DNA of 64,000 nt. Origin: Enterococcus caccae ATCC BAA-1240. Lineage in GTDB: Bacteria > Bacillota > Bacilli > Lactobacillales > Enterococcaceae. Shown here one piece after another: positions 11,388 through 38,516 of this stretch (within the stretch, counting starts at the first letter, position 1; each line of letters starts with the position of its first letter). The position numbers were made by a program, and so were the translations under genes. The stretch covers positions 1,097,658 to 1,161,657 of the forward strand of contig NZ_KE136472.1 in NCBI RefSeq assembly GCF_000407145.1, read 5' to 3'. The notes under the pieces were generated by a model. It was not told the origin of the DNA. It worked only from the letters and a program-made list of their open reading frames with translations, and did not search any database.

Positions 11388-11545
11388 CTAAAAATGTCAT
11401 TCGAATGATGCCTTATGAGCTTCCTGTTTCAGTGTAAAGGCGTTACACTTGCTCTTTTTCATGTGTGTTAGTACTTGTTTTTCCTGATTTTAAGTAGTTG
11501 GGACTTTTGATGGTTCACTAGTGTGATAGCTTCGCTACAAACAAA

Positions 11546-11577
11546 AATCCTCCCACCCGTGTTCGGATAGGAGGATT
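11546..11577 (-). terminator. pyrR leader: Attenuator terminator of the pyr leader
   Basis: An eight-base perfect stem (AATCCTCC / GGAGGATT) with an inner CCG/CGG pairing, followed in the minus-strand transcript by a T-run. It lies about 170 bases before the pyrR start and downstream of a PyrR-binding loop, the layout of a PyrR-controlled attenuator. Confidence 0.85.
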
Positions 11578-11661
11578 GAATTTATCTATACAAAGATACC
11601 ATTCAGTTCACACAGATTTTTTCTAAGCGCACTTAGATATTGTTCTGCATGTTTCCTTCTT

Positions 11662-11675
11662 AGCCTCACGGGACT
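11662..11675 (-). promoter_or_regulatory. pyrR leader: PyrR-binding loop in pyr leader RNA
   Basis: The transcript reads AGTCCCGTGAGGCT, an exact fit to the known PyrR anti-antiterminator consensus ARUCCNGNGAGGYU. Position between the promoter and the leader terminator supports UMP-dependent attenuation of the whole operon. Confidence 0.88.
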
Positions 11676-11714
11676 ACTCTTAAAGGATTACTTATTAAAT
11701 TTTCTTTCTAAAAC

Positions 11715-33511: not shown

Positions 33512-34297
33512 TTAATCAAGCGTGATTTCTTCTACTTCTTCTTCAAAGAATAGTAATAAATCTTGTAAGCTTAACTTTTCTTTTTCTGCTTTACTGAGGT
33601 CTTTGATAATTTGACCTTTTTGTAAAACAATTAATCGGTTACCATAATTCAACGCATCTTCCATACGGTGGGTGATCATTAAACAAGTTAAATCTCCTTC
33701 TTTGATTCGTTGATCTGTCAACTGCATCAACTGTTTTGATGTTTTAGGATCTAAAGCTGCCGTGTGTTCATCTAAAAGCAATAAGTCAGGCTTTGTTAAT
33801 GTTGCCATTAATAGACTCAGTGCTTGTCTTTGTCCACCAGAAAGATTCCCTGTCGGCGTGTCTAAATGATTTTCTAACCCGTTTCCGACTTCACTGCAGA
33901 TTTTTGTAAATAGCGTTCTCTCTTCATTTAATCTACGTAACCGTAAGCTTCGCTTTTTCCCTCTATACATAGCTAATAATAAATTCTCAGCAACGGTCAT
34001 CCTTGGTGCTGTCCCCATCTTAGGATCTTGAAAAACACGCGATACGTATTTTGCACGTTTTTCTTCAGAATAAGCAGTGATATTTTGATCGTTGATCAGT
34101 AAATCCCCTTCACTTAATGTTACTGTTCCAGCAATACTGTTAAATAACGTACTTTTACCTGCTCCATTACCACCTAATACGGTAACGAATTCACCCTGAG
34201 CTATTTTTAAATTCACATGATTTAAAATCGTTTTTGTTTCATTCAACCCATTATCAATACGCTTCGTCGCATTTTTTAGTTCTAAAACTGTGCTCAT
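33512..34297 (-). CDS. trpZ: Tryptophan ABC transporter, ATP-binding protein (TrpZ-type)
   Basis: A 261-residue ABC ATPase: Walker A LGGNGAGKSTLFNSI, Q-loop VFQDPKMG, signature LSGGQRQALSL, Walker B PDLLLLDEHTAALDP and H-loop LMITHRMEDAL. The frame is open up to 34366, but the ATG at 34297 (MSTVLELKNATKRI) is preceded by GGAGGGGGAG and overlaps the permease stop in ATGA, so that is the start. Last gene of a three-gene operon with a TrpX-type binding protein. Tryptophan specificity is inferred from the family and from the Trp-codon leader upstream. Confidence 0.88.
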   Translation of the reverse strand: MSTVLELKNATKRIDNGLNETKTILNHVNLKIAQGEFVTVLGGNGAGKSTLFNSIAGTVTLSEGDLLINDQNITAYSEEKRAKYVSRVFQDPKMGTAPRMTVAENLLLAMYRGKKRSLRLRRLNEERTLFTKICSEVGNGLENHLDTPTGNLSGGQRQALSLLMATLTKPDLLLLDEHTAALDPKTSKQLMQLTDQRIKEGDLTCLMITHRMEDALNYGNRLIVLQKGQIIKDLSKAEKEKLSLQDLLLFFEEEVEEITLD

Positions 34298-35190
34298 TTC
34301 TCCCCCTCCTTTTGTGGTAAAAAGTGCAGATTTAATGCTTTTTTTAGTTGTGGTATCATTAAACATACTGCTAAGATCACAGCAGAGAAGACTTTTAAGT
34401 AAGTTGTATCAAACCCTAGCTTGATGACCAACAAAATAAGTAACTGATAAATAATACTCCCTACAACAATCGCTACTAGACGTTCCGCAAAGGTCAATTC
34501 ACCGAATAACACTTCACCAATAATGATTGAGGCCAAACCAATAACGATCACACCAGTTCCTTTATTGACGTCTGCATAGCCATCATTTTGAGCAATCAAA
34601 GCACCAGATAAGGCAATCACACCGTTTGATAATGTCAGTCCTAATATTTTCATAGAATCAGTCTTGATACCGATCGAGCGCGCCATATGTTCGTTATCAC
34701 CTGTTGCAATATAAGCTTGACCCAAATTCGTATTGAAGAAAAAGAGTAATAAACTAATAATGATTGCTAAAAAAATCACTCCTAAAAAGATGATATCGTA
34801 ATAATTAGGAAGATTAAGTTGTAAAAAGAAATCTTGAATCTTCGGTTTATTTAGTAAAGATAAGTTTGGCGTTTGCATTACAAAAAGTATCACTGAATTC
34901 AACCCTGACATCACTAAAATACCTGCCAATATTACTGGGATTTTTCCTTTAGTAAAGAGTAATCCAGTTATCAGACCGGCACTCATCCCAGCTAAAACAC
35001 CTAACAATGTAGCAATAATAGGATGAATACCATTTGTAATTGCCGTAACACATACTGCTCCTCCTAATGGAAATGAGCCTTCTGTCGTCATATCAGGAAA
35101 GTTTAAAATACGATAAGTCATAAAGATTCCTAAACCTAATATTGCCCATAACATTCCTTGTCCAATTGCTGAAACAATCATTTGATCCAC
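34294..35190 (-). CDS. trpY: Tryptophan ABC transporter, permease (TrpY-type)
   Basis: A 298-residue integral membrane protein with about eight to nine segments, of the branched-chain/BMP-like permease superfamily (LSNGVIALSGALIAQNDGYADV near residue 200 is characteristic). It begins nine bases after the binding-protein stop and overlaps the ATPase gene by four bases (ATGA). Only one permease gene is present, so it probably works as a homodimer. Confidence 0.88.
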   Translation of the reverse strand: MDQMIVSAIGQGMLWAILGLGIFMTYRILNFPDMTTEGSFPLGGAVCVTAITNGIHPIIATLLGVLAGMSAGLITGLLFTKGKIPVILAGILVMSGLNSVILFVMQTPNLSLLNKPKIQDFFLQLNLPNYYDIIFLGVIFLAIIISLLLFFFNTNLGQAYIATGDNEHMARSIGIKTDSMKILGLTLSNGVIALSGALIAQNDGYADVNKGTGVIVIGLASIIIGEVLFGELTFAERLVAIVVGSIIYQLLILLVIKLGFDTTYLKVFSAVILAVCLMIPQLKKALNLHFLPQKEGEK

Positions 35191-35199
35191 TCCTTCTAC

Positions 35200-36189
35200 C
35201 TATTCTGTAATTGTAGCTTTTGATTTAATATGTTCAGGAATCGAAATTCCTAGCTTCTCTGCTTGTTTTTGATTAATGATGATATCACCTGTTTTAAATG
35301 TATAGATTGGTGTTGTTTCCGGCTTGGCTTTTCCAGATAAAATATCAGCAGCCATTTTGCCAGTTTGAACACCTAAGTCAAACTGATTGATCCCTACTGT
35401 AGCAAGTCCACCTTGCTCAACCATTGTGTCCACAGAAGGAATAATCGGTGTTTTAGTTTTGTTCGCTTCATTGACAACTGTTTGCATCGCATTAGCAATC
35501 GTATTGTCTGTAGGAATATAGATAAAATCTACTTCACTTGTCATGACTTGAACAGTTTGTGCAATTTCATTACTTGAAGGTACAGCATAGGTCTTAACCG
35601 TCAATCCTTTTTTTTCTGCAACATTTTTTGCTTCCTCAACTTGATATTTGGAGTTTTCCTCTGACGATGCATATAAAATTCCAACTTTTTTCTTTTTCGG
35701 TAAAATTTCAGACACTAAATCAAACTGAGCAGCTACAGGTGATTTATCACTAACACCAGTGATATTGCCCCCTGGTTGATTATTATTCTTTACAAGTCCT
35801 GCACTGACCGGATCCGTGATTGCCCCAAGAACGATTGGTATTTCTGTCGTTATATTTGCTAGTGCCTGTGCTGCCGGTGTTGCGATTCCGATTAGAACAT
35901 CTGCTTTCTTTTCTTGTACTAATTGCTGACTCATTGTGGCCAATTTACTTTGATCCGCTTGACCATTTTGAAAAGCAATCACCATGTTCTTCCCATCTTC
36001 ATACCCTTTTTCTTTCAAACCAGCTTGAATGCCTTTATAAATTTGATCCAATGCAGGATGACTAACAAACTGCAATACACCAACCGTTGGCAACTTTTCT
36101 TTGGCCGCTTCTTTTTTTTCTACAAAGAATGAACCAATTAAAAAAATAACAATCATTACGACAACAATCGATAAACGATTTTTTCTCAT
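35200..36189 (-). CDS. trpX: Tryptophan ABC transporter, substrate-binding protein (TrpX family)
   Basis: A 329-residue type I periplasmic-binding fold protein with VGVLQFVSHPALDQIYKGIQ near residue 36, GIATPAAQALAN, IPIVLGAITDPVSAGLV and IPTDNTIANAMQ, typical of the ABC substrate-binding TrpX family. The N-terminus (residues 7-24) is a membrane anchor without a lipobox Cys, so it is held by an uncleaved helix or is secreted, unlike most Gram-positive binding proteins. AGGAGG precedes the ATG. Upstream lie a conserved 60-nt element and a Trp-codon attenuator. Confidence 0.87.
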   Translation of the reverse strand: MRKNRLSIVVVMIVIFLIGSFFVEKKEAAKEKLPTVGVLQFVSHPALDQIYKGIQAGLKEKGYEDGKNMVIAFQNGQADQSKLATMSQQLVQEKKADVLIGIATPAAQALANITTEIPIVLGAITDPVSAGLVKNNNQPGGNITGVSDKSPVAAQFDLVSEILPKKKKVGILYASSEENSKYQVEEAKNVAEKKGLTVKTYAVPSSNEIAQTVQVMTSEVDFIYIPTDNTIANAMQTVVNEANKTKTPIIPSVDTMVEQGGLATVGINQFDLGVQTGKMAADILSGKAKPETTPIYTFKTGDIIINQKQAEKLGISIPEHIKSKATITE

Positions 36190-36276
36190 TTCTTCTCCTC
36201 CTAAATTTTAAAATGGAATGTGCTTTCGATTTCGTATGAAACCTAAGAAAAATTGACTGAGGTATTCTTCACCTCG

Positions 36277-36356: not shown

Positions 36357-36398
36357 AAAAAAACAATGACAAATCCTAAAAAGGAGCAGTCATTGTTT
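36357..36398 (-). terminator. Second leader terminator upstream of trpX
   Basis: Transcript AAACAATGAC...GTCATTGTTT with a T-run of seven, 18 bases after the attenuator terminator. A second hairpin in tandem may tighten termination in the tryptophan-replete state, or belong to an additional control layer with the 60-nt element. Confidence 0.8.
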
Positions 36399-36404
36399 CT
36401 AAAC

Positions 36405-36523
36405 AAAAACCGCATAGACTACCCATCTATGCGGTCAAAAATTCATCTTGAATATACCGACATAGATACAAAATTTAGAATTTGTCTTCTAAAGTTGTAT
36501 CTATGAGAGTCTCATACATACAA
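36405..36523 (-). promoter_or_regulatory. Five-segment attenuator of the trpXYZ operon
   Basis: Five segments can pair only with neighbours. Segment 1 (36524-36510) and 2 (36508-36494) form a 13-bp stem with one mismatch. Segment 2 (36504-36486) and 3 (36480-36462) form a long stem. Segment 3 (36466-36456, TCTATGTCGGT) pairs with segment 4 (36435-36426, ACCGCATAGA). Segment 4 pairs with segment 5 (36418-36409, TCTATGCGGT), followed by TTTTTG, an intrinsic terminator. A ribosome at the leader stop codon would cover segment 1, giving 2:3 and the 4:5 terminator. A ribosome stalled at the Trp codons leaves 1:2, then 3:4, so the terminator is lost. Mechanism inferred from base pairing. Confidence 0.75.
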
Positions 36524-36586
36524 CTATCTACGCCAGTTTTGCCATGAATTATTCAATTCTTTGATTGGTTTTGATAGTCCGTTCAT
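36524..36586 (-). CDS. Tryptophan-rich leader peptide of trpXYZ
   Basis: A 20-residue ORF reading MNGLSKPIKELNNSWQNWRR, too short for usual gene calls. AGGAG lies seven bases before the ATG. Two of the last six residues are Trp (codons 15 and 18), and the TAG stop is directly at the first base of attenuator segment 1, the spacing expected for ribosome-mediated attenuation. The operon it precedes encodes a TrpX-type tryptophan transporter. No T-box signature is present in this leader. The peptide itself probably has no function beyond its codons. Confidence 0.75.
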   Translation of the reverse strand: MNGLSKPIKELNNSWQNWRR

Positions 36587-36617
36587 GTAATCACTCCTAT
36601 AGTTTTGTAATAAAGTT

Positions 36618-36647
36618 AGTGTACACCAAAGAGAATTTGTTCGTCAA
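36618..36647 (-). promoter_or_regulatory. Promoter of the trpXYZ leader transcript
   Basis: TTGACG (36642-36647) and TACACT (36618-36623), spacer 18 bases, on the minus strand. The start site would fall about 20-25 bases before the leader ATG, leaving room for the AGGAG site. Confidence 0.75.
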
Positions 36648-38227: not shown

Positions 38228-38516
38228 TAATGATGAATCAATTAGAAAACGATGAAAAGAAGAGTACTATTTTCAGAGAATTAATGAGAGAGTCTTGGTA
38301 GCTGAAAAGAGATATTTCGAGAAAATAGGAAGATGGTCTTTTAGTTAACATTGGTCAACTCTGTATAGCCAATGTTGGGTACGCCCATTACAGCGTCTAG
38401 GTATTAAGTATGATTTGTACCTAAAGAGGAAAATCTTGTGAGAGATTTTTGAATTAAAGGTGGTAACGCGTTCAATCGTCCTTTACTTTTGCAAAAGAGT
38501 ATTGGACTTTTTTTTT
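38228..38516 (+). ncRNA. T-box leader, probable methionine specificity
   Basis: T-box riboswitches read uncharged tRNA. Visible landmarks: AGAGAGTCTTGGTAGCTGAA (stem I distal part, from about 38287), a candidate ATG specifier at 38333-38335 in GGAAGATGGTC, the T-box proper AAAGGTGGTAACGCG (38456-38470), and a terminator GTCC...GGAC with a nine-T run (38478-38516). Specifier placement is by pattern and by the downstream methionine-synthase-like genes, so the amino acid is probable, not proven. Confidence 0.88.

Follow-up and report, generated by a model that had tools for sequence, protein, structure and literature searches.

A candidate ribosome-mediated tryptophan attenuator ahead of trpXYZ in Enterococcus caccae and its sister leaders with tyrosine and phenylalanine codons

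The trpXYZ leader and its parts

The window, that is the whole stretch of 64,000 nucleotides analysed here from Enterococcus caccae ATCC BAA-1240 (contig NZ_KE136472.1), carries a trpXYZ operon on its (-) strand. Upstream of the operon lies a leader with a short ORF, a series of segments able to pair in rival ways, and two terminator-like hairpins. Its parts are as follows.

36618..36647 (-), promoter-like site, -35 TTGACG and -10 TACACT with 18 nt spacing (9/12 consensus matches)
36594..36599 (-), Shine-Dalgarno sequence TAGGAG of the leader ORF
36524..36586 (-), leader ORF MNGLSKPIKELNNSWQNWRR, 20 codons, ending in SWQNWRR, stop codon TAG included
36544-36542 and 36535-36533 (-), leader Trp codons
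36525..36537 (-), segment 0, the end of the ORF with the last Trp codon, able to pair with segment 3
36510..36524 (-), segment 1, partner of segment 2
36488..36508 (-), segment 2 (C), partner of segment 1 or 3
36456..36479 (-), segment 3 (D), the switch segment, partner of 0, 2 or 4
36425..36435 (-), segment 4 (E), forming the antiterminator with 3 or terminator 1 with 5
36401..36418 (-), segment 5 with the U-tract (F), partner of 4 or of the 5' arm of terminator 2
36408..36436 (-), terminator 1 (terminator consensus scan)
36398..36507 (-), match to Rfam RF04312, covering the 2:3 and 4:5 helices (covariance model)
36361..36398 (-), terminator 2, with 5' arm G at 36398-36386 and 3' arm H at 36370-36361
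35200..36189 (-), trpX, tryptophan ABC transporter substrate-binding protein (NCBIfam)
34294..35190 (-), permease gene, trpY by position (Pfam BPD_transp_2)
33512..34366 (-), ATPase gene, trpZ by position (Pfam ABC_tran)

The initial annotation of this DNA had described a Shine-Dalgarno sequence, a 20-codon ORF, a TAG at the edge of segment 1 and five complementary segments, and all of these are present where it placed them on the (-) strand. The promoter that it named, TTGACG-18-TACACT, is there too, yet such sites are no more frequent than in shuffles (two in the 551 bp scanned against 2.2 expected), which makes the site at 36618-36647 weak evidence. Terminator-like sites number three in the scanned region against 0.1 expected. 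The terminator at 36408 had been taken for the last stem. It is not the last, since a second terminator-like hairpin follows at 36398-36361, unreported by the consensus scan, which takes loops of 3-8 only. The 163-nt stretch that begins right behind the stop codon and runs through terminator 2 folds at -57.9 kcal/mol, compared with -30.4 (sd 3.6) for shuffles (z -7.6, 0/200 as low). A small hairpin, GAGGTGAAGAATACCTC, lies between terminator 2 and trpX at 36259-36275 (-).

TrpX scores 480 bits against the NCBIfam equivalog model of the tryptophan transporter (cut-off 390), and its close named relatives are Enterococcus proteins with up to 91% identity. No T-box covariance model matches the leader; T-box control is thereby rejected, in agreement with the initial annotation. 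TRAP control was rejected as well: there are 11 (G/U)AG triplets in 257 nt, no two of them spaced 2-3 nt apart. Elsewhere in the window there is a T-box at 38243-38486 (+, 95 bits), ahead of two ORFs that by eye resemble MetE-type methionine synthases, and a PyrR binding site (RF00515) at 11541-11690 (-, 56.6 bits).

With 61.6 bits against a cut-off of 59 the leader is a member of RF04312. With 21.4 bits against a cut-off of 61 it falls below the threshold of RF02863, of which it is a sister, not a member. A search for the names of RF04312 in the open-licence literature found only PMC11109978, which places this "trpB ncRNA motif" among ten remaining strong riboswitch candidates and counts over 900 representatives of it among Firmicutes and Fusobacteria, most commonly next to an uncharacterised amino-acid-like ABC transporter. 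The passages of that paper on the motif report no upstream ORF, and its authors leave a classic attenuator standing as a possibility (PMC11109978). The RF04312 model shares the 2:3 and 4:5 helices with the window and is without the leader ORF, segments 0 and 1, and terminator 2. A leader-peptide reading of RF04312 or RF02863 was not found in the open-licence literature (main texts). The initial annotation had thought a leader-peptide attenuator before a Trp transporter not well described; the RNA motif itself had already been listed by Rfam and published as an orphan.

Leader ORFs and rival pairings among relatives

The ORF in the window alone is little proof, since the same 401 bp around the leader are overlapped by 13 ORFs with 20 aa or more. 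Conservation in the family is the evidence. RF04312 was searched in 196 related genomes, of which 152 matched (59 above the cut-off) and 44 gave no match. A survey of 398 genomes across the phylum, where the family is spread thin outside the window's order, yielded five matches, three judged real (two from the window's own order) and two false. We examined 153 loci, window included, taken from the best 150 matches listed among the relatives and from the phylum survey; they span seven of nine labelled families.

A leader ORF was defined as an ATG with 10-30 codons, Shine-Dalgarno pairing of -5.5 kcal/mol or better, and an end at most 35 nt upstream of the motif. Such an ORF is present at 148 of the 153 loci. 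Trp occurs in the last 12 codons of 146 of these 148 and W-x(1,2)-W in 125, while shuffled upstream DNA (n=2,960) gave 75 ORFs, 14 with Trp and one with W-x(1,2)-W, and control positions within the same loci (n=1,180) gave eight ORFs, one with Trp. The same definition finds no leader ORF at L034, L035, L127, L145 and L153. By eye these are other terminators or coding sequence, and we rejected them as true members.

The initial annotation had proposed a comparison across genomes, and this comparison finds what it predicted, namely Trp codons conserved in the leader ORF (146/148) and stems that covary. Stems kept without the ORF or its Trp codons would have spoken against it. Among the 148 loci there is no such case except for two with Phe/Tyr codons and another gene: the leader of L152 ends in YYFSYFR before aroE and that of L033 in FFNNHFR before a sodium-dependent transporter, both without Trp.

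The 148 leaders comprise 133 distinct peptides. SWQNWRR is the tail in 44 of them; other tails are WRNWRR, WQSWYKTLY and WQGQ. Between close leaders 176 of 231 changed codons are non-synonymous, and hence there is no general coding constraint beyond the tail. The first downstream gene, assigned by homology (n=148), encodes TrpX at 138 loci, TrpB at five, AroE at one and a sodium-dependent transporter at one; three have none. When 71 named loci encoding TrpX relatives are considered, 62 have a Trp leader of the same kind upstream; the ORF of L225, nine codons with a single Trp, is unrelated. With a model built from our own leader alignment, the scaffold is recovered ahead of trpX in 58 of these 71, the rest being six Bifidobacterium and seven distant loci.

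Several single loci may be mentioned here. Five of the six Bifidobacterium TrpX loci (L198, L200, L202, L206, L215) have a Trp leader, with tails such as WRGWRS and WRCWRRYL, at places where the scaffold model has no match; in L198 arms resembling CATAGATGCGA and CGTCTATG appear by eye to be kept. Transfer of the transporter together with its attenuator is one possible origin of these leaders. L171 has the scaffold (138-278, 105 bits with the model) and Trp codons, and no ATG leader start was found there. L005 (TWQNWHR) and L027 (TWQNWQI) have intact-looking Trp leaders followed only by an opposite-strand ORF that by eye is aldehyde-dehydrogenase-like, no trp gene being found; these leaders could be orphan, decaying, or RNAs acting in trans. 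In L002 an ORF that by eye resembles a group II intron reverse transcriptase lies about 440 nt past the motif, at the expected place of the controlled gene.

Covariation was scored on 66 representatives of less than 85% identity against 500 pair shuffles that ignore relatedness. All four pairings of the initial annotation covary: 1:2 scores 0.201 (shuffled mean 0.140), 2:3 scores 0.179 (0.136), 3:4 scores 0.151 (0.126) and 4:5 scores 0.288 (0.137), and 0/500 shuffles reach the score of any of them. Partners slid by 1-3 columns always score lower, though helices read from the window have an advantage over their slid versions. The antiterminator (3:4) and the intrinsic terminator (4:5) are mutually exclusive. 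A further pairing, 0:3, joins segment 3 to the terminal part of the ORF, in which the last Trp codon lies. It scores 0.292 (shuffled 0.229, slid maximum 0.111), above all 500 shuffles, and own pairs reach -16.5 kcal/mol against -13.4 for swapped partners and rank in the top quarter in 22 of 30 clusters; base pairs changed in both partners show no excess (77/500 shuffles as high). The 0:3 pairing helps to explain, in part, why the leader tail is conserved. A weak pairing of the ORF start with segments 0/1 (A:B) gives -13.0 for own and -10.2 for swapped partners, with a codon-permutation mean z of only -0.73.

A second terminator-like hairpin follows the first at 133 of the 148 loci and in 20 of 30 cluster representatives; it is missing at 15 trp-type loci, including three of the five trpB loci. 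Its 5' arm can pair with the 3' arm and U-tract of terminator 1 (F:G). For the 20 cluster representatives that have terminator 2, F:G gives -14.1 with its own partner and -8.9 with swapped ones (best quarter in 18 of 20), and F with the 3' arm of terminator 2 gives -5.5. At 85% identity 52 of 66 representatives have terminator 2, and in the alignment made of these (A2, 50 rows, L152 and L124 left out) F:G covariation is 0.329, compared with 0.228 for shuffles and at most 0.194 for slid partners, and lies above all 500 shuffles. Pairs with changes on both sides are again not in excess, 386/500 shuffles being as high. A coupled double terminator would be a low-leak design; we know of no other attenuator that has it, and found none in the open-licence literature.

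Sister leaders with tyrosine and phenylalanine codons

Many relatives have a second match about 3 kb downstream of the trpX leader, which Rfam assigns to RF02863 at four of the 18 named loci scanned. RF02863 is found in 147 of the 196 relatives, 112 above the cut-off. We fetched 71 of its loci, a non-random set made of 30 of the best matches, 40 picked for variety among the matches listed, and the second match of the window's genome. All 71 have a Tyr/Phe leader, four or more of whose last eight residues are Phe or Tyr, and in all 71 an ORF with a Shine-Dalgarno sequence and ATG runs into the RF02863 model, as happens in only 4 of 1,420 shuffles. The first gene encodes a TrpX paralogue at 49 loci (304-341 bits, under the TrpX cut-off of 390), AroE at 11, DAHP synthase at six and AroC at one (these three pass curated family cut-offs), AroB at three (assigned by Pfam DHQ_synthase) and AroK at one (shikimate kinase models matched below their cut-offs). 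Six leaders of the RF02863 type are Phe-only (e.g. SFFFSFFR) and one is Tyr-only (RYYVSYY). The 0:3 helix is kept with the swapped codons in 16 of 16 loci looked at.

RF02863 thus has the same kind of scaffold as the trpX leader and a similar leader tail (LNN...), and differs in its Tyr/Phe codons, its label as an sRNA, and its TrpX-paralogue or aro genes. The window's genome has three members, the leader of trpX, that of aroE and that of a paralogue sharing 41% identity with TrpX, and a model made from trp leaders picks up two RF02863-type loci there. Other genomes have several units each, before genes for TrpX paralogues, AroE, DAHP synthase, AroC, AroB and AroK, every unit with its own Tyr/Phe leader (L256-L266 in G089, G070 and G097; L277, L285, L289, L294). 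Twenty hand-picked weak matches to RF04312, not all of them independent (L303 and L304 share leader and sequence, and L313 is the place of L173), comprised six Trp leaders, nine Tyr/Phe leaders, several of them at places also matched by RF02863, and five loci with none. A tree of 108 transporter proteins, all TrpX-like, separates those with a Trp leader (57) from those with a Tyr/Phe leader (51) by one branch with 100/100 support.

Terminators of the sisters were scanned at 26 of the 71 loci. In TrpX-paralogue leaders (L226, L240, L254, L256, L284) no clear U-tract follows the first hairpin, and the second alone resembles a terminator. The double terminator is therefore valid for trp leaders and for most of the aro leaders examined, not for the TrpX-paralogue sisters, which represent a single-terminator form of the scaffold. 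To judge by name and length, RF02863 ("Enterococcus sRNA 2410") derives from sRNA_2410 of E. faecium, a 195 nt RNA studied under daptomycin that gave two transcripts on Northern blots (PMC5593968). These blots are evidence for short RNAs from a sister leader, not for a mechanism, and we do not read the two bands as terminators 1 and 2 because terminator 1 of TrpX-paralogue leaders has no clear U-tract.

Proposed mechanism and alternatives

The E. coli trp leader encodes a peptide with two Trp codons and forms rival antiterminator and terminator hairpins. The leader described here is like it in layout; here there are more segments, a second terminator and mostly a transporter gene, in Enterococcaceae and relatives. 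The his leader of Salmonella and E. coli also has an extra hairpin before its terminator, modelled to lower leak (PMC1183508); here the codons are different, segment 3 can also pair with the end of the ORF, and terminator 2 can pair with the 3' arm of terminator 1. Leader-peptide attenuation is described for His leaders in Firmicutes (PMC2965389, PMC9413887) and for Leu/Ile in the ilv leader of S. aureus (PMC5794164), which concern other amino acids and are alike by mechanism. In S. suis the same operon responds to the same signal through a T-box (PMC9382623), where tRNA binds the RNA directly and there is no leader peptide.

We think it very probable, on the comparative evidence, that the window's leader is a ribosome-mediated transcription attenuator that senses charged tRNA-Trp. 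The initial annotation had proposed a ribosome-read Trp attenuator before trpXYZ, and the TrpX model score and the Trp codons kept in relatives argue for it. The leader ORF, the identity of its codons, the rival pairings and the match of codons to genes come directly from sequence comparison and covariation; from them we infer translation, stalling, a starvation response, the sequence of events and a role for terminator 2. In 49 of 66 representatives, 11-12 nt separate the last regulatory codon from segment 1; in eight more, all with a single Trp codon, the gap is 20-21 nt. A ribosome occupies roughly 11-12 nt of RNA on the 3' side of its A site. With the last regulatory codon in the A site, it would reach just far enough to cover segment 0, and segment 1 would stay free.

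Events would then run as follows. When Trp-tRNA is scarce, the ribosome would wait at the leader Trp codons, covering segment 0 and leaving segment 1 free, so that 1:2 would form. Segment 3 would then be free for segment 4, which would block terminator 1, and the freed 3' arm of terminator 1 could pair with the 5' arm of terminator 2, allowing transcription of trpXYZ. In the alternative state 2:3 would form and both terminators would fold. If there is no ribosome, segment 2 or 0 is predicted to hold segment 3 in most relatives, and the default would be off. The sisters with Tyr/Phe codons would exert the same control over genes of aromatic transport and the shikimate pathway.

Partition functions with the ribosome masked, which describe equilibrium only, were computed for 147 loci (one of the 148, in which no terminator was found, was left out). 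The commonest predicted partner of segment 3 is segment 4 in 87 of 147 with the ribosome at the first regulatory codon; with the ribosome at the last one it is segment 4 in 82 and segment 2 in 64, and with the ribosome at the stop codon it is segment 2 in 136. The trend is as expected if ribosome position sets the fold, although individual loci depart from it, and it weakens in longer transcripts. Without a ribosome it is segment 2 in 94, segment 0 in 31 and segment 4 in 22. The initial annotation had argued that five segments imply read-through when there is no translation. There are more than five, and 3:4 is predicted to dominate without a ribosome in only those 22 loci. The window's leader is one of these: segment 3 pairs with 0/2/4 at 0.12/0.01/0.51 without a ribosome, 0/0/0.67 when stalled and 0/0.57/0.08 at the stop codon, but once the modelled transcript extends to the 5' arm of terminator 2 the antiterminator fraction is 0.01, 0.62 and 0.03, respectively. 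The parity of that annotation is thus not the rule of the family, and even for this leader it is uncertain. The earlier reading was right in kind, and its parity and segment number were wrong or incomplete. For such longer transcripts the mean of D:E at equilibrium over 133 loci is only 0.21 when stalled. F:G in the 20 cluster representatives is nearly independent of state (0.25 without a ribosome, 0.24 stalled, 0.22 at the stop codon).

Could the RNA itself bind tryptophan, with the 2:3 hairpin as the aptamer, as proposed for RF04312? RF04312 was published as a strong candidate, and both a terminator and a potential antiterminator were described for it (PMC11109978). However, the published motif is without the ORF, which is present in 148 of 153 loci with codons that fit the downstream genes; Phe/Tyr codons on the same scaffold accompany other genes; and 2:3 has rivals in 1:2 and 0:3. 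We regard such a riboswitch as extremely improbable. Another candidate is an arrest peptide similar to TnaC, with free Trp halting the ribosome at the stop codon on the conserved tail WQNWRR; 2:3 and the terminators would then fold. Such a stall would regulate in the correct direction, and SWQNWRR does recur in 44 of 148 leaders. Yet the tails vary (WRNWRR, WQSWYKTLY, WQGQ), their nucleotides are held by the 0:3 pairing, the regulatory codons may be Phe/Tyr, and the last of these codons keeps a looser distance to the stop codon (6-30 nt, sd 5.4) than to segment 1 (sd 3.0); arrest of this kind is very unlikely. Codon identity tracks gene identity, which control by tRNA charging predicted and which neither a Trp aptamer nor an arrest peptide would predict.

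A different question is how much of the architecture belongs to the switch. Attenuation may be correct and terminator 2 an independent backstop, with 0:3 and F:G as by-products of repeated sequence. If terminator 2 arose as a copy of terminator 1, this could yield F:G (L103 is a case in point); F:G hardly varies with ribosome state at equilibrium, double-change pairs for F:G and 0:3 are no more frequent than in shuffles, and 15 of 148 loci do without terminator 2. Against this, F:G at -14.1 beats both F with the 3' arm of terminator 2 (-5.5) and swapped partners (-8.9), and an unconditional second terminator would block the operon. We consider the backstop somewhat unlikely. A more far-reaching reading is that one ancestral scaffold was duplicated through the order and took new codons (Trp; Tyr and Phe; Phe-only; Tyr-only), giving an aromatic regulon without a protein regulator. 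One switch segment would have three rival partners (the ORF end, segment 2 and the antiterminator), the genes would be expressed only during a ribosome pause at the regulatory codons, and the two terminators would be coupled like dominoes, so that one decision serves both gates. Such a logic would be new. It is made less likely by the indifference of F:G to ribosome state in the model and by transporter sisters without the double terminator, and our judgement of it is evenly balanced.

The swapped codons amount to a natural experiment that can tell codon sensing from ligand binding. If the attenuator reading is correct, a specific function can be proposed for two curated families filed otherwise, RF04312 as a riboswitch candidate and RF02863 as an sRNA. 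Together they suggest that Enterococcaceae and their relatives use ribosome-mediated attenuation to control genes for aromatic amino acids.
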